A DNA stretch of 32,071 nt from a virus, in IMG/VR virus record IMGVR_UViG_3300011013_002632, positions 1 to 32,071 of that record; one strand, 5' to 3'. The position numbers and the translations under genes are program-made. Positions 3,164 through 13,225 of this stretch are shown here, piece by piece. Position 1 is the stretch's first letter. Each line of letters begins with the position of its first letter. The notes beneath the pieces were generated by a model, which saw only the letters and a program-made list of their open reading frames with translations, ran no database searches and was not told the origin of the DNA.

Positions 3164-3821
3164 ATTTTTCTCTCAATATAGCTCTTATTTTTCTATTCAA
3201 TGGATAATAGTATGTGTGTTTCTGAACTCGTTTAATAGCTGTAATTTCAATTCCCAATTCTTGTTCAAGACGTTTTCTATTTGCGTGTCCATACCTATGA
3301 TTAACTGTTCTAGTATGTACCGTTTCACCATTTATAATTAATGCTTGTGGACCACCTTGAGATGCTTTACCAGCATAAAACCAATTAGAAGCCTTATAAA
3401 TTCCACCATGATGATTCACTTCTGGAGCCGCATATGCAACTAATAACTGAACCTCTGGAAAATTTTGTCTTACCTGATTTATTGTTTGGCTAAGAAATTG
3501 AGATAGTATCCCATTATACTCATCAGGACTCCAAAGACGCATTAACTCTTGTGTCTTACATCCAAATCTAACATTACCTGTTGTTGGTCTACCGTAAATT
3601 GCTACAGCTTCACCATCTGTATAAGAACATAAAACCCTTGAACTTGGAACACTACCCAAATAATGTTCTGTTAATAAACTATTTGCTGTTGTGGAATCTA
3701 TGGAGCGGAAGACTAGATTTGCACTAGTACTTTTTCTTTGGTGAAGAAACGTGCTACTCACTTGCACCACTTCCGCATCATCTTCAATATCAAATCCTAA
3801 CTCATCGACTATTTTTATCAT
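3147..3821 (-). CDS. Mom-like DNA modification acyltransferase (GNAT-related), 224 aa
   Basis: Residues ~125-155 (LLVAYAAPEVNHHGGIYKAS then NWFYAGKAS) match the hallmark of phage Mom-like proteins, a GNAT-derived family in which an aspartate or proline loop, an H(H/T)GGIY turn and a W/F-Y-x-G strand build the active site. Phage Mu Mom converts adenine in DNA to N6-carbamoylmethyladenine to evade restriction. The N-terminal strand and helix (VFRSIDSTTANSLLTEHYLG, GEAVAIYGRPT) and the RLWSPDEYN segment also fit. The C-terminus is basic (KRVQKHTYYYPLNRKIR), suited to binding nucleic acid. It is followed with overlap by two glycosyltransferase genes and preceded by a small zinc protein. The family is likely; that this protein makes the Mu modification is not shown. 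Confidence 0.75.
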   Translation of the reverse strand: MIKIVDELGFDIEDDAEVVQVSSTFLHQRKSTSANLVFRSIDSTTANSLLTEHYLGSVPSSRVLCSYTDGEAVAIYGRPTTGNVRFGCKTQELMRLWSPDEYNGILSQFLSQTINQVRQNFPEVQLLVAYAAPEVNHHGGIYKASNWFYAGKASQGGPQALIINGETVHTRTVNHRYGHANRKRLEQELGIEITAIKRVQKHTYYYPLNRKIRAILREKYDSKS

Positions 3822-5846: not shown

Positions 5847-6125
5847 TTAATTTTCTCCTGTCCAATCAATAATATTAGAAATTATATTATCCGAGTTTTC
5901 CCCACAAGCCATACGCCCCATTATGTACCCAATATGAAGATTTCCAAGAACAAACTCCACAATTTCTTTTGGCATAGCATCTCTAGCAAAATGATAATAA
6001 GATGTTGAAAGACGTATTAATTCTTCAGTATCCATAAAAGATTGAAGAGATACGTCTTTCTCTAAATCCCCTAATGATGTTATGTGCTTACAAGACTTCT
6101 CAAATAAAGTTTTACCATCGTTCAT
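5847..6125 (-). CDS. Hypothetical protein downstream of thyX, 92 aa
   Basis: The start is set at ATG 6125 (MNDGKTLFEKSCK), which has AAAGGTG 7 bases upstream and begins 4 bases after the thyX stop. A longer frame from 6200 would overlap thyX by 71 bases and add a spurious hydrophobic N-terminus. The product is helical and mildly acidic (TEELIRLSTSYYHFARDAM, EIVEFVLGNLHIGYIMGRMA). No function is recognised. Confidence 0.65.
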   Translation of the reverse strand: MNDGKTLFEKSCKHITSLGDLEKDVSLQSFMDTEELIRLSTSYYHFARDAMPKEIVEFVLGNLHIGYIMGRMACGENSDNIISNIIDWTGEN

Positions 6126-7424: not shown

Positions 7425-7838
7425 CTATTCACTACTCCCATTTATCAACTCCATTTCCGCATGTCTAATTTTCCAAATATGTCTAATACTACATTCTCGT
7501 GAACAATGAATATTTTTATATCCTCTACGTTTTTGAGCATTATAAACTGACCTAGCCCAAGTTACGTCTATCCCACAAAAACTACATTGAAAAGTAATAC
7601 TTGAGTTTTTCTTTCTGCACTCTGAAGAACAAAACTTACGAGATGTCTCAACACGAACCTTACATACAGAACATAATCTTGGAGTGCGTTTTGCTTTAGT
7701 AGGCATACCTCTTTTCTTTAAGATTTGCCTCACACGTTCCCTAGTTACTCCAACCTCTTGACCAATAGCATCTAATGTCCAATCAGGATGCTCCTCTCGT
7801 AACGCAAAAACTCTCTGTTTGTTTACAACTCTGTCCAT
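7425..7838 (-). CDS. Sigma-70 region-4-like HTH plus double zinc-finger protein, 137 aa
   Basis: The N-terminus (residues ~10-45) is an HTH of the sigma-70 region 4 kind: TLDAIGQEVGVTRERVRQIL. It is followed by two treble-clef-type zinc sites, CSVC...FCSSEC (residues ~56-74) and CSFC...HCSREC (residues ~84-116), each C-x2-C then C-x3-C. The basic linker suggests DNA binding; it may be a transcription factor or part of an HNH-like module without the HNH. ATG at 7838 has GAGGG 4 bases upstream. Its 5' region holds the structured RNA and inverted repeat at 7862-8060 and a strong promoter at 8065-8093. A paralogue of the same layout lies at 9267-9662. Confidence 0.75.
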   Translation of the reverse strand: MDRVVNKQRVFALREEHPDWTLDAIGQEVGVTRERVRQILKKRGMPTKAKRTPRLCSVCKVRVETSRKFCSSECRKKNSSITFQCSFCGIDVTWARSVYNAQKRRGYKNIHCSRECSIRHIWKIRHAEMELINGSSE

Positions 7839-7861: not shown

Positions 7862-7968
7862 CTATATTAATTACTCCTATATATTAAATACGATTAAGAG
7901 ACAGCCATCAAATCTCTAATCGCAGAATGTAAGTAATTAACCTACACTAATATATAGGAGTAATATAG
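7862..7968. repeat. 17-bp perfect inverted repeat enclosing a second hairpin
   Basis: ATTACTCCTATATATTA at 7870-7886 is the exact reverse complement of 7948-7964. The arms can be extended by CTAT/ATAG (7862-7865 and 7965-7968) across a 4-base bulge. Inside lies another stem, CGATTAAGAGA (7891-7901) with TCTCTAATCG (7913-7922), 10 bp with one bulged A. On the minus-strand RNA the downstream arm contains AGGAG about 35 bases before the 137-residue gene, so a Shine-Dalgarno-like sequence would be buried in the stem. A regulatory leader, RNA processing site or protein-binding site is possible. Confidence 0.8.
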
Positions 7969-8060
7969 TAATCGAGAACGATGCTGGATAACTGGTGAAA
8001 AATCCACCGCACAACTTCCTAGCAACCTTTTCCGTAGAGTTGTCCTACGACCCGATTACT
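7967..8060 (-). ncRNA. Candidate structured RNA with pseudoknot, about 94 nt
   Basis: Read on the minus strand from 8060, the RNA would start 5 bases after the -10 box of a strong promoter. Paired elements seen by eye: P1 AGTAATCG (8060-8053) with CGATTACT (7974-7967), extendable to 11 bp in DNA; P2 CGTAG (8049-8045) with CTACG (8037-8033) and a 7-nt loop; P3 TGCTaGGA (8024-8017) with TCCAGCA (7988-7982), one bulge; P4 GGTG (8008-8005) with CACC (7997-7994), loop GATTTTT; and a pseudoknot in which ACAACT of the P2 loop (8043-8038) pairs with AGTTGT (8016-8011). Only about 34 of the 94 bases are left unpaired. It has no T-loop or anticodon arm like a tRNA. Role unknown: ribozyme, riboswitch-like leader or regulatory RNA. 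Confidence 0.6.
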
Positions 8061-8064
8061 ATAA

Positions 8065-8093
8065 ATAATACCAATAATAAGCCCATATGTCAA
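8065..8093 (-). promoter_or_regulatory. Sigma-70 promoter TTGACA-17-TATTAT
   Basis: On the minus strand, TTGACA (8093-8088) is separated by exactly 17 bases from TATTAT (8070-8065). The -35 box begins 3 bases after the stop codon of the metallophosphoesterase gene. The expected transcription start is near 8060-8057, at the 5' arm of the structured RNA, which then leads into the 137-residue HTH zinc-finger gene. Confidence 0.8.
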
Positions 8094-8095
8094 CA

Positions 8096-9226
8096 CTAAT
8101 CAAAGGTTATTTGATAAAGCCATGTAACGAGCTTATCTTCCGATGTACCAAAAATTGTTTGAGTTGGTGGTGAATCATAACCTAACTGTAACGCATACTC
8201 ATCATGACTAACCAAAGTTCCATTCATTATTATGGGCATACCATTGAAATTTAAGACATTAGCTGTATGGAAATGACCTAAAACGGCGGCATCAAAATCC
8301 TCAATAAATCTCCAATGCTCCATTTTTTTAATAACACTTCCAAACGGGAATCCACCATAACTTTTAATTGTATCTCCATGAGTAACTAAAAACTTATGGT
8401 TCATAACATCAGCTATAGAAAAAGCCACCCTATTTATATGTGGCGGTCTATGGAAAAAAACTCTCTCTTGATTTTTCTTTAGATTTTCCATCAAATTAAC
8501 ACGAACTAAATCCCAATTAGAGCCAGCAGAATACTGCTTATCTAAATTTCCATGATTACCGGGTGCGTCATGCCAATGAACCTCATCAAACAAACCTAGT
8601 AATTTATCTATCAACTCGCCCATAACACTAGTTGATATAGCTAATTGTTCTGGAATCCCAAACTCAAAATCATTCATTCTTCCTTGCTGACCCACACGTT
8701 CTCCATGAACATTATCTCCAGCATCAAATACATGAATAATCCTTAATGAAGAATTATTCCTATGCAACGTAACAATATCCTCAAGAGAATCATATAACTG
8801 AGCCATTCTATCGGTATAAACTTCCGAATCGAATGAAGGTGTTCTTCTACCAATATGTAAATCGGAAAGAACTAAGCAAACACGTTCCTCAACACCGTCA
8901 TTACTATCTAATTTCGGTGCAGAAACTCTCTCCGATGGAATCATAAGACGTTGAAGTTTTTGCTCTATAGTTTCTTCAGTACCAAATTCAGTCTGTTCAG
9001 TATCTACAGAATCATCACTTCTGTAATTCTCCATAGCGTTTTTTATTAAACGACCCTCTGGACTATTTCTTTTAATCCATGAGTAAATAGTAGCTTTATT
9101 GGCTCCAACATGGTCGGAAGCTTGAGCTACAGATTTTCCATTCAGAATTTCTTTTACAATAAGGTAAGCTAACTGAGATTTTTCTTCTGCCGTATATAAT
9201 CTTGGTGTTTCCAAAATAATCTCCAT
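8096..9226 (-). CDS. Metallophosphoesterase with N-terminal HTH, 376 aa
   Basis: Residues ~15-55 are a helix-turn-helix of the transposase/small-terminase kind (GKSVAQASDHVGANKATIYSW). Residues ~115-325 carry the calcineurin-like metallophosphoesterase motifs in order: DLHIG (122-126), FDAGDNVHGE (168-176), GNH (223-225), VTHGD (281-285) and GHFH (317-320), giving the full set of Asp, Asn and His metal ligands. Such enzymes hydrolyse phosphodiesters using two metal ions; relatives include SbcD/Mre11 nucleases and phage phosphoesterases. The HTH suggests it acts on DNA, possibly at a specific site. ATG at 9226 has AAAGGA but unusually far upstream (about 18 bases). Downstream, the strong promoter at 8065-8093 starts right after its stop. 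Confidence 0.85.
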   Translation of the reverse strand: MEIILETPRLYTAEEKSQLAYLIVKEILNGKSVAQASDHVGANKATIYSWIKRNSPEGRLIKNAMENYRSDDSVDTEQTEFGTEETIEQKLQRLMIPSERVSAPKLDSNDGVEERVCLVLSDLHIGRRTPSFDSEVYTDRMAQLYDSLEDIVTLHRNNSSLRIIHVFDAGDNVHGERVGQQGRMNDFEFGIPEQLAISTSVMGELIDKLLGLFDEVHWHDAPGNHGNLDKQYSAGSNWDLVRVNLMENLKKNQERVFFHRPPHINRVAFSIADVMNHKFLVTHGDTIKSYGGFPFGSVIKKMEHWRFIEDFDAAVLGHFHTANVLNFNGMPIIMNGTLVSHDEYALQLGYDSPPTQTIFGTSEDKLVTWLYQITFD

Positions 9227-9266: not shown

Positions 9267-9662
9267 TTATATATTTTGTGACATTCCCTTGGCTGAACAT
9301 ACTCTAGAACAATAATTTTTACCTTTATATCGTGGGTCATCCTCTCGTTTTAATACAACGGCTCTTCTCCTATAGAATAATAGGTTACATGTATTACACA
9401 CTAACGCTATATATAAATAATGAAACCAACAATCCTCTGAACAAAATTTCTTTGTTATTTGACCAACAATGGGTTTTTCACATCCCTTACATGGATGCGA
9501 TTCAATAATTCTTCTTGTAGATACTTGATAAATTGAACATATCTGTCTTACTCGTTCCCCACTAATACCAAAAACTTCTCCAATTTTTCGGAGAGATATT
9601 TTTGGATTATTCAATTTAAATTCAATTATCTGAAAATGTACATTTTTTCTATCGTCAACCAT
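9267..9662 (-). CDS. HTH plus double zinc-finger protein, paralogue of 7425-7838, 131 aa
   Basis: Same layout as the 137-residue protein: N-terminal sigma-70 region-4-like HTH (SLRKIGEVFGISGERVRQIC, residues ~23-42), then CKGC...FCSEDC (residues ~58-77) and CNTC...YCSRVC (residues ~89-122). Its HTH shares the G-x-S/T-x-ERVRQI core with the paralogue, but the two are otherwise diverged. It is probably DNA-binding. It lies 12 bases after the lipoprotein stop and about 40 bases before the metallophosphoesterase, so it is likely transcribed from the lipoprotein promoter at 10404-10432. The SD is weak. Confidence 0.7.
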   Translation of the reverse strand: MVDDRKNVHFQIIEFKLNNPKISLRKIGEVFGISGERVRQICSIYQVSTRRIIESHPCKGCEKPIVGQITKKFCSEDCWFHYLYIALVCNTCNLLFYRRRAVVLKREDDPRYKGKNYCSRVCSAKGMSQNI

Positions 9663-9674
9663 TATTAAACTACT

Positions 9675-10382
9675 CTAATTTAAAAGAACCTTTCCCTCTG
9701 TAGCATCAGAACTACCGTTTTCTTCCTCTGGAAAACCATATATAAAATCAACAGAATTCGGGTCTATATTAAAATGCTTCAACAACTCAATTTGCAAATC
9801 TATAGATTTCCTATTATCTGAATGTTCGCTCCACTCTCTAAGAAGCGAACTATAATATTCAATACTTTCCTCATCTTCAGCTAATAAAGAGTCTAACAAA
9901 CCATAGCCAATTTCTCTAAATGTATAAATACGATATAATTCTGCTAATTTAATTTCCTCTAACTGATTATAATAAATATTTGAAGTAGGTTTCCATAAAT
10001 TTAACCCACTCTCATAAACATTTATTGCTCCTATAACCAAAAAATTTGATATGTATAATTGATGGTATCTACGCCCTTCCAGTTGATAAATAATTTGAAC
10101 ATCACCCAAGAACAAAACAAAATTATTACTTATGTCATTAAATGCCGTTAATTCTTCAATAACTATTTTTCTAGAGTCTACTACAGGTTCTGGAGTATTA
10201 GTGGGTTCTGGAGTATTAGTGGGTTTTGGAGTTTTAGTAGGTAATATAATATCAGTAGGTAGAAGTAATTCTTGAACTTCTGATGAAGTCAGTTCAAGTT
10301 TTTGTTCTACCTCGGAATCTGCTACGCTAGAACATCCAACCAGAATAAAAGACATTACAAAGAAACAAATAATTAGCTTCAT
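9675..10382 (-). CDS. Phage-encoded lipoprotein, 235 aa
   Basis: The N-terminus is a textbook lipoprotein signal: MKLIICFFVMSFILVGCSS, with lipobox LVGC and Cys at position 17. After ~30 residues comes a threonine/proline linker with repeats (TPKPTNTPEPTNTPEP, residues ~49-64), a spacer type common in Chloroflexota and some other surface proteins. The C-terminal ~165 residues are helical (IYQLEGRRYHQLYISNFLVI, LKHFNIDPNS) and match nothing I recognise. It should be exported and lipid-anchored, with the globular domain held away from the membrane. It has its own promoter at 10404-10432 and a G5 run just before ATG, as expected of a moron gene; superinfection exclusion or host-surface change is a reasonable guess. 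Confidence 0.75.
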   Translation of the reverse strand: MKLIICFFVMSFILVGCSSVADSEVEQKLELTSSEVQELLLPTDIILPTKTPKPTNTPEPTNTPEPVVDSRKIVIEELTAFNDISNNFVLFLGDVQIIYQLEGRRYHQLYISNFLVIGAINVYESGLNLWKPTSNIYYNQLEEIKLAELYRIYTFREIGYGLLDSLLAEDEESIEYYSSLLREWSEHSDNRKSIDLQIELLKHFNIDPNSVDFIYGFPEEENGSSDATEGKVLLN

Positions 10383-10403
10383 TATGCCCCCATAGTAAAC
10401 GAA

Positions 10404-10432
10404 ATTATACGCTAATATGTCGGATTTGACAA
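10404..10432 (-). promoter_or_regulatory. Sigma-70 promoter TTGTCA-17-TATAAT
   Basis: On the minus strand, TTGTCA (10432-10427) and TATAAT (10409-10404) are 17 bases apart. The predicted start near 10397 leaves a ~15-base leader with GGGGG four bases before the lipoprotein ATG at 10382. The promoter fills the 69-base gap after the stop of the 193-residue gene. Confidence 0.8.
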
Positions 10433-10451
10433 TGCTAGTTCCGATGTATGT

Positions 10452-11033
10452 TTATAATGCTTGTACTAGGGAATCTCCAATTAAACTATTAAGGGTACTA
10501 CCTGATGAATATCTTTTAAGTAACTCCTGTTTTTGTTCCAAAGAAATATTCGGATGATATGACTGTCTATAACATGCTTCCAAAAACATATTATGAATTC
10601 TTATTATCTCTGATTTATAATCAGGAGAAGTCCCCCTAAAATTTACTAGTAAATTCTTAACCTGTTCTTCCCCTACTAACATAGCCTCGGTAGGATTTGT
10701 ATAATAGCTATACTCCGCTCCGATATTACTACAATTTCTAAGCTTAAATATAGAGTAGCAATACGGTGAGCCATTTATATGATATTCACCATTAGGTAGT
10801 GTTTTGGGCGATGGATAATACACCTCTAAATGTTCATCAAACTCAAAGTTTTTGGATAACTCGTATGTTCGATTACCAAGAAGTTTAGCTAGTTCCTCAA
10901 AATATTCTTCTCCACTAGAAGTCTCTCTTATAGTATTCCCTACTAGCAAACTTTCTTCTGAAAACTCTTGATGTTTCTGTAGATGCTCAGATGAATATAC
11001 TCCTAAAGATACCTTTTCAAATTTTATTTCCAT
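10452..11033 (-). CDS. Hypothetical protein, 193 aa
   Basis: A soluble acidic protein without signal peptide, membrane span or recognisable motif; two Cys (YCYSIF, RNCSN) are not spaced like a metal site. The C-terminal third is helical (SEIIRIHNMFLEACYRQ, SLEQKQELLKRYSS). ATG at 11033 has a good SD (AGAAGGAG, 8 bases upstream). It follows the 48-residue gene closely and lies in the SNF2 transcription unit; no function is assigned. Confidence 0.6.
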   Translation of the reverse strand: MEIKFEKVSLGVYSSEHLQKHQEFSEESLLVGNTIRETSSGEEYFEELAKLLGNRTYELSKNFEFDEHLEVYYPSPKTLPNGEYHINGSPYCYSIFKLRNCSNIGAEYSYYTNPTEAMLVGEEQVKNLLVNFRGTSPDYKSEIIRIHNMFLEACYRQSYHPNISLEQKQELLKRYSSGSTLNSLIGDSLVQAL

Positions 11034-11050
11034 AATAATTACTCCTTCTA

Positions 11051-11197
11051 CTACTTTTCTGTTATTAGTTCAAAATCATACGCTAAATCAATTATGTCCT
11101 GTTTCTCTAAAGAATTAATAAACTCATATGCCTTAGTATATGAACACTCATAAGTTTCCTGATATATTTCTATTAACTGATTTTTTATTTTCTCCAT
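11051..11197 (-). CDS. Hypothetical small protein, 48 aa
   Basis: The frame starts at ATG 11197, 5 bases after the SNF2 stop, with AAGGAGAG about 11 bases upstream, and ends in two consecutive TAG codons (11053-11048). The product (MEKIKNQLIEIYQETYECSY at its start) is one or two amphipathic helices with a mostly acidic C-terminal half. It fills what would otherwise be a 169-base gap. Function is unknown. Confidence 0.6.
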   Translation of the reverse strand: MEKIKNQLIEIYQETYECSYTKAYEFINSLEKQDIIDLAYDFELITEK

Positions 11198-11202
11198 CTC
11201 TA

Positions 11203-13152
11203 CTATCTCTCCTTACTAGTTAAGTAATCTATGACATCATCCAGCATATTGACTTCCAAATCTCCCTCTTCTCCATCAAGGATATTTCCAACTACTTTTC
11301 TCTTTTTCTCGATAAGACTCCAGATAAAATTGTCGATGGTGTTCTTTCCAAGAATGTAGTAGCAATTTACTGCGTTTTTCTGAGTATTCCTATGAAGTCT
11401 GGATTCTGCTTGGTCATGTGTAGCTGGATTCCAACCCAAGTCTACAAACAAAGCATTTGAACCAGAAGTTAGGGTTAATCCCTCAGATGCACCCTTGAGA
11501 GAACAAATAATCAATTTCTGATTAGGTTCATTCTGGAATTTGTTTTTAGCTTCATTCTTTTTCTTGGCATTATCGGAACCTAGAATTGTTAGTGCATCTG
11601 GATATTCCTCTATTAGCGTATTCTGAACAGCCCTACTATCAGAGAACACTACTAATTTTTCACCAGACTCTAGGAAATCTGAAATCCAGAGTTTGATATT
11701 CTTCATCTTTCCCCGAACACATGCATCTTTCAAAACATTGATTCGTACAAGATGTTCTGCACGAGAAGCTCTTTCTGCTGAAGCCATACCTTTATTATCT
11801 ATTAACCACGCAATCAAATCTTCCTCAATCCGATTGTACTCTGAACGATTCTCTATACTACTTGGAATTATAGAAATCGTGCGGTCTGGTAAATCTGGTA
11901 GAGCAAGTTCTTTAGTTATTCGATTGTAAACCGTTGATGTTAGCTTGGCATGTAACTCGTCTAGGTTACTAGCACCACTGTAATCAGTCCCCCACCGTGA
12001 AATAGTTGGGTCACAATACCTATTGATGAATTTCTTAACTCCACCAAAACTAGATAATCCATTCATAGCCTGTAACTGAGTTACTAATTCCACTGGCTTG
12101 TTCATTACTGGAGTACCTGATAGTAGGAATACGTAAGGAATGTTCTTTACAATTTTTAGTGCTGAACGAGTTCTTTTTGCATCACGACTTTTGATTTTAT
12201 GTGATTCATCAAGAATCGCTCCTTTAAATTCAGCGTGTTCAATCTGACCAACGTGTTTAGTCAGAATGTCGTAGTTGATAATGGTGAAATCCGTATCACC
12301 GTATTTACCCAAAGCCTTGCCACCGTTCAAAACTTTGAAAGTTTTCCCCGGCAACCACTTTTCGATTTCTTCAGCCCATGTGTATTTCATACTGGCAGTT
12401 GTTACTATCAATGCTGGATACGCATCAGCAGAATGAATCGCTACCAAACTGGTGGGAGTTTTTCCTGTCCCCATATCCCAACCTAGCATAGCTTTTTCTT
12501 TCTCAACCAACCATTTTGCCCCCTCTTTCTGGAAAGGGTATAACTCCAATCCAACCCCATCATCATTCAAAGATGGGGCATTAGCTTTTTTTACCGAAAG
12601 AACAGACTTGGAAACTTCTCTGACCTCATCAGTTGCATCAAAAGTGTACTCTTTAGCAACCTCAATAAATCGGGCTACTGAATCTTTATTGGTTTTGGGG
12701 AAATACCAGACTTTATTGGAAGGATTCCAACGTGCAATAGGAATAGTTTTTACACTGGCAACCACCGAAGGGTCATACGGGAATCGTAGAACAAAATTTT
12801 CACCTACGATTGCTACAGTACGTTTAGCATCCCCTCTAGTAGCAACCTTGTGAGACTCAATCTCACTATCAGTAAATTCGGGAGTAGGAATAGAATCAAA
12901 GTCGATTCCAAACCCTGATAACTGACCACGATATTTCCGAACCATTTTATAGGTAGCTCGAACCATTTTAGGTGTCCAACTCTCAAATGGTTTTTCAGCT
13001 AATGAGTGACCAAAACTAGCATCAACACCGTTAAAGCCCTTGCCGTCATCAGTGTTAGCGTAATCACAAACTCCAGCAAGTGCAGATACCGCATAGTGGA
13101 GAACTGACCAACTGGAAAGGTCTATACTTTTTGTCTCTATTGCTACGCTCAT
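11203..13152 (-). CDS. HARP-like/SNF2 superfamily II helicase-translocase, 649 aa
   Basis: Residues ~112-170 resemble the HARP domain of SMARCAL1-type annealing helicases (FVLRFPYDPSVVASVKTIPI, then RWNPSNKVWYFP). The SNF2 core follows: LYPFQKEGAKWL, Walker A GTGKT (228-232), Walker B as DESH (315-318), SGTP (345-348), and in the second lobe SLKGASEGLTLTSGS, WNPATHDQAESRLHR and NCYYILG. All motifs needed for ATP-driven dsDNA translocation are present. In phages such proteins are usually in replication or recombination regions, where they may anneal or remodel forks. An N-terminal ~100-residue module has no name I know. It is transcribed from a consensus promoter at 13197-13225, and a G6 run lies 7 bases before ATG 13152. 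Confidence 0.92.
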   Translation of the reverse strand: MSVAIETKSIDLSSWSVLHYAVSALAGVCDYANTDDGKGFNGVDASFGHSLAEKPFESWTPKMVRATYKMVRKYRGQLSGFGIDFDSIPTPEFTDSEIESHKVATRGDAKRTVAIVGENFVLRFPYDPSVVASVKTIPIARWNPSNKVWYFPKTNKDSVARFIEVAKEYTFDATDEVREVSKSVLSVKKANAPSLNDDGVGLELYPFQKEGAKWLVEKEKAMLGWDMGTGKTPTSLVAIHSADAYPALIVTTASMKYTWAEEIEKWLPGKTFKVLNGGKALGKYGDTDFTIINYDILTKHVGQIEHAEFKGAILDESHKIKSRDAKRTRSALKIVKNIPYVFLLSGTPVMNKPVELVTQLQAMNGLSSFGGVKKFINRYCDPTISRWGTDYSGASNLDELHAKLTSTVYNRITKELALPDLPDRTISIIPSSIENRSEYNRIEEDLIAWLIDNKGMASAERASRAEHLVRINVLKDACVRGKMKNIKLWISDFLESGEKLVVFSDSRAVQNTLIEEYPDALTILGSDNAKKKNEAKNKFQNEPNQKLIICSLKGASEGLTLTSGSNALFVDLGWNPATHDQAESRLHRNTQKNAVNCYYILGKNTIDNFIWSLIEKKRKVVGNILDGEEGDLEVNMLDDVIDYLTSKER

Positions 13153-13196: not shown

Positions 13197-13225
13197 ATAG
13201 TATCACGACTTGCTACACTTGTCAA
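13197..13225 (-). promoter_or_regulatory. Sigma-70 promoter TTGACA-17-TACTAT
   Basis: On the minus strand, TTGACA (13225-13220) and TACTAT (13202-13197) are 17 bases apart. The predicted start near 13190 gives a ~38-base leader ending in a G6 run before the SNF2 start. The promoter lies in the 101-base gap between the small zinc-protein gene and the helicase gene and probably also serves the genes at 11051-11197 and 10452-11033. Confidence 0.8.

Follow-up and report, generated by a model that had tools for sequence, protein, structure and literature searches.

An inverted-repeat insertion carrying two predicted folded domains between a conserved promoter and a small HTH/zinc-finger-like gene of a phage lineage

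The window analysed here is the whole of one IMG/VR virus record (32,071 nt, 32 kb), in which nearly all genes lie on the minus strand. Two predicted folded domains sit in the 257-nt gap between the genes at 8096-9226 and 7425-7838. The product of the upstream gene matches the exonuclease PHROG 284 (E 8.6e-36), while the 137-aa product of the downstream gene matches PF04545 (E 1.8e-7) and is 75-83% identical in relatives. A second small gene, at 9267-9662, also encodes a Sigma70_r4-like HTH and Cys pairs in a layout like that of the 7425-7838 protein, and weakly matches a PHROG of HNH endonucleases; the region 9635-11211 varies in length among relatives (1577 nt in the window, ~440 nt in G001 and ~1930 nt in G003). 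ARAGORN gave a tRNA-Gly (anticodon acc) at 3701-3776, which overlaps the start of the 3147-3821 gene and is possibly spurious. The features of the locus are as follows.

8096-9226, minus strand: upstream gene, HTH plus phosphoesterase/exonuclease-like protein, which fixes the synteny
8065-8093, minus strand: promoter, TTGACA (8093-8088), 17-nt spacer ending in TGG, TATTAT (8070-8065)
7863-8056, minus strand: lineage-specific insertion of 194 nt, carrying both folded domains
7964-8063, minus strand: domain A, first half of the insertion, minimum free energy -33 kcal/mol, z -4.3
8053-8063/7964-7974, minus strand: closing stem P0, an 11-bp perfect inverted repeat
8045-8049/8033-8037, minus strand: hairpin P1, predicted fold
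8021-8024/7982-7985 plus 8017-8019/7986-7988, minus strand: P2, predicted fold
8005-8008/7994-7997, minus strand: P3, predicted fold
8011-8043, minus strand: possible pseudoknot, ACAACT (8043-8038) with AGTTGT (8016-8011)
7864-7968, minus strand: domain B, a three-way junction with hairpins at 7927-7947 and about 7889-7924
7425-7838, minus strand: downstream gene, 137-aa protein with a Sigma70_r4-like HTH and Cys pairs (HTH/zinc-finger-like)

The consensus promoter proposed in the initial annotation was recovered on the minus strand, with 11 of 12 consensus matches, a 17-nt spacer and an extended -10 (TG before the -10). Its arrangement of -35, 17-nt spacer and TGG extended -10 (TAGTAT or TATTAT) is common to four IMG/VR records (L002, L003, L004 and L005), which represent three distinct relatives. 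The transcript start was predicted at 8057-8060, from which the RNA would run downward in the numbering of the window. Apart from this promoter, the window has a single exact TTGACA/TANNAT promoter-like site, at 13197-13225 on the minus strand, upstream of an SNF2-type helicase gene. No terminator-like site was found after domain A or domain B and before the downstream gene; therefore, both domains form the 5' leader of that gene, and the 7425-7838 gene is read from the leader carrying the insert, by transcription that we infer.

Comparison with relatives defined the insertion. The BLAST alignment with G003, the relative with the longest alignment, breaks at 7862/8057 of the window and 11231/11217 of G003, leaving 194 nt in the former versus 13 nt in the latter; the leader was also aligned with three relatives. 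The four IMG/VR records, two of which are 99.9% identical in the upstream gene, keep both the gene pair (75-86% protein identity) and the promoter spacing, and their leaders are only about 41-51 nt long. The insertion falls precisely between the promoter and the ribosome-binding region. A wider search for remote relatives of the downstream gene returned only the same four records. The pairwise identities of the upstream gene are nearly star-like, the window being 79-82% identical to all and G004 equally distant. With the window thus no clear outgroup, one gain of the 194 nt in its lineage is a simpler explanation than loss on several occasions. None of the relatives that have this gene pair carries the element, which argues against a phage RNA that is essential or conserved widely.

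Domain A has a predicted folding energy of -33.0 kcal/mol and a z-score of -4.3, and none of 200 dinucleotide shuffles was as stable. Its ends, already described as pairing, form an 11-bp perfect inverted repeat on the minus strand (TATAGTAATCG/CGATTACTATA), of which a transcript starting near 8059-8060 would include 7-8 bp. Of the other helices in the initial annotation, the CGTAG/CTACG hairpin, the GGTG/CACC hairpin and the bulged stem were likewise reproduced in the predicted fold of the minus strand. P0 begins with TATAGTA, which is similar to the leader as it was before the insertion, and the rest of domains A and B lies within the insert. As for the proposed pseudoknot, the complementarity of ACAACT and AGTTGT is present but weak by itself, since 5.5% of shuffled sequences (10% allowing G-U) can pair with the 7-nt P1 loop over 6 Watson-Crick bp, and the match may stem from composition alone (~5% chance). 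An independent RNA of ~94 nt, as had been suggested, is not supported: it is followed by no terminator-like site, it is contiguous with the stronger-folding domain B, and both domains belong to one insertion.

Domain B, which the earlier description lacked, adjoins domain A directly downstream. It is closed by a 17-bp perfect inverted repeat (7948-7964/7870-7886), the longest of the window, which encloses domain B only and not the whole insert. The folding z-score was -7.0 for 7864-7968 and -7.7 in a scan, where it ranked first among 1066 minus-strand scan windows, versus -5.3 for the next best. The second-best local minus-strand fold (5941-6120, z about -5) lies inside the 5847-6200 gene and holds an 11-bp inverted repeat at 6007/6050. 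The insert as a whole folds far better than shuffled sequences.

We searched for homologues of the insert at several levels. The Rfam scan that had been recommended gave no class at the gathering level or at E<=10, apart from one chance snoRNA score, and blastn against phages and plasmids gave short chance matches only. Pattern scans of viral contigs (inverted-repeat arm, linker/P2 core, B hairpin loop and P1 hairpin) and of genome contigs (linker/P2 core) produced only chance hits, every one of which, in the five viral scans and the one genome scan, stood without the remainder of the element. A DNA search of 398 Bacillota genomes, an arbitrary choice of phylum, gave six matches, each 20-34 nt long, which is roughly as many as expected, and a single-sequence covariance model (R1) detected no relative among the loci searched or in 299 Bacillota genomes. 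A CRISPR spacer (L045/L048) resembling positions 7887-7920 of the window was judged a chance match, with a 2-nt gap and mismatches; it belongs to a 99-repeat array in a Bacillota genome (L048, 6193-12706), and among the matches listed no second spacer of that array matched the window convincingly. A tRNA and an intrinsic terminator were considered as identities of the insert and rejected, and a coding role was not convincing (best ORF 27 aa, with a TTG start). Because no homologue, and hence no covariation, was found, our functional statements on the insert RNA are inferred; the case also cautions that a pseudoknotted fold, however appealing, cannot prove a functional class of RNA when it is known from a single sequence and lacks homologues.

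The best reading of the insert is either a cis-acting leader insertion on an mRNA or a palindromic insert without RNA function. We tentatively lean towards the former, at somewhat less than even confidence: a lineage-specific insert of inverted repeats would place two junction domains at the mRNA 5' end and act there in cis, without catalysis. In this reading, a ~190-bp inverted-repeat sequence would have entered a conserved two-gene neighbourhood at the transcription start, within what had been a short 5' leader; transcription from the conserved promoter would then yield an mRNA whose 5' terminus consists of successive three-way-junction domains, A followed by B. With its 5' end paired from about the first nucleotide, the mRNA would be less open to 5'-end-dependent decay (by RppH and then RNase E or RNase J), and expression of the downstream HTH/zinc-finger-like gene may be altered through decay and possibly translation. 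In B. subtilis, RppH acts only if two or more nucleotides at the 5' end are unpaired (PMC3997798), and P0 starts about 0-3 nt from the predicted transcript start, giving at that start the 5' helix expected of a stabiliser. In addition, the likely ribosome-binding site (GAGGGAUAU) is partly paired in the predicted fold, and that of the relatives mostly open, according to one energy model. Against such a cis effect stand the ability of the gene to do without the insert in all relatives, the similar z-scores of the insert on both strands, a pattern expected of a DNA palindrome, and the lack of a homologue and so of proof of RNA-level selection.

The insert could instead be a palindrome at the DNA level, MITE-like or made by template switching, in which the folds are a by-product of the inverted repeats and have no function as RNA; we consider this less likely, though it is the main rival. 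It would agree with a recent insertion absent in relatives, with the perfect 17-bp inverted repeat, with the unit TATA(GG)AGTAAT/ATTACT(CC)TATA that the four arms of the insert share, as read from the sequence, and with a fold about as significant on the opposite strand. However, the multiple copies of a MITE-like element were not found, the insert being a single copy in the window and its relatives, with none in phages or plasmids. There is no clear target-site duplication, since TATAG at both insert ends, a possible duplication, spans only 5 nt, and a plain palindrome would not require internal hairpins and G-U pairs as elaborate as those of the insert. The predicted fold holds nine G-U pairs on the transcribed strand versus two on the other, an excess that favours the RNA view, but only weakly because G and T are also more frequent on the transcribed strand.

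That the leader gives rise to a trans-acting or processed phage RNA, its 5' domain being excised by host nucleases, seems improbable: a compact folded 5' domain does lie at the start of a strong promoter, but it has neither a terminator nor a defined 3' end, and it is not conserved, even in syntenic relatives. A ligand-sensing or regulatory leader in a broad sense is possible. We regard as very unlikely its specific form of a riboswitch with two aptamer-like domains, possibly switching by exchange of similar arms. The 5' leader indeed holds two junction domains, and the similar arms would permit alternative pairing, judging from their sequence, yet no Rfam class was matched, no terminator or clear anti-Shine-Dalgarno helix was found as an expression platform, and relatives that have this gene lack the insert.

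A self-cleaving ribozyme with pistol-like topology appears highly improbable. The resemblance to the pistol ribozyme (RF02679) pointed out earlier stands as far as helix order is concerned, namely, P1 hairpin, P2, pseudoknot strand and P3, with a 6-bp pseudoknot between the P1 loop and the strand at the P2-P3 junction. To this may be added an A-rich linker after P1 and a GCG (8010-8008) right after the pseudoknot strand, in place of G40-C41-G42; these positions are those of env25, as mapped onto domain A. In contrast to the pistol, domain A is enclosed in the extra 11-bp stem P0 and has an A in place of G33, in agreement with the earlier failure to match the catalytic bases. The set of core bases (purine 32, G33, G40, C41 and G42), with roles as given in PMC6154101, is thus not found in domain A. 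Pistol ribozymes combine their topology with a 2-nt right junction and a free left linker (PMC4604425, PMC6154101). The minimum-energy fold has a 2-nt right P3-P2 junction (UA), but leaves 0 nt for the left linker and places purine 32 in a pair (GGA/UCC paired), whereas with the left linker free (GGA/UCC unpaired) the right junction becomes 8 nt; no single register fits both the 2-nt junction and the free linker with purine 32. The pistol model gave nothing on the record at E<=10 and no match in the 398 Bacillota genomes, so these supplied no known pistol as a positive control. Pistol membership was rejected on the lack of an Rfam match, the lack of G33 and the unfit junction geometry. The 5% chance of the pseudoknot also speaks against a pistol, and cleavage by the insert RNA is unsupported, though conceivable. 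Least of all do we expect domain A to be the first member of a new self-cleaving class in which a pistol-like topology goes with another core, and to travel with domain B in a small mobile RNA element that integrates downstream of phage promoters.

The window and its relatives provide a natural with/without pair, in which the same promoter and gene occur with a large structured leader present or absent; therefore, the effect of the insert on phage gene expression is directly testable. Among known systems, the pseudoknot-containing hammerhead ribozyme (PMC11300833) has a similar overall connectivity, but its CUGANGA core is absent here and Rfam gave no match; the combined CUGANGA and GAAA core of a hammerhead is lacking, there being no CUGA in the minus-strand sequence of the insert. 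We found no close precedent in the literature on MITE-like structured inserts in phages or on put-type antitermination leaders. The insert resembles bacterial MITEs and palindromic extragenic repeats in being a small non-coding inverted-repeat insert that is absent at the site in relatives, but differs in its single copy, its lack of a known family and its lack of a clear target-site duplication. If the insert acts in cis on its mRNA, the comparison would be with the 5' stem-loops of the ompA and aprE leaders, which are 5'-terminal stabilisers as cited in PMC3997798. The insert is much larger than these and comprises two junction domains, but in its predicted fold it shares with them a 5' end paired from about +1 of the mRNA leader.
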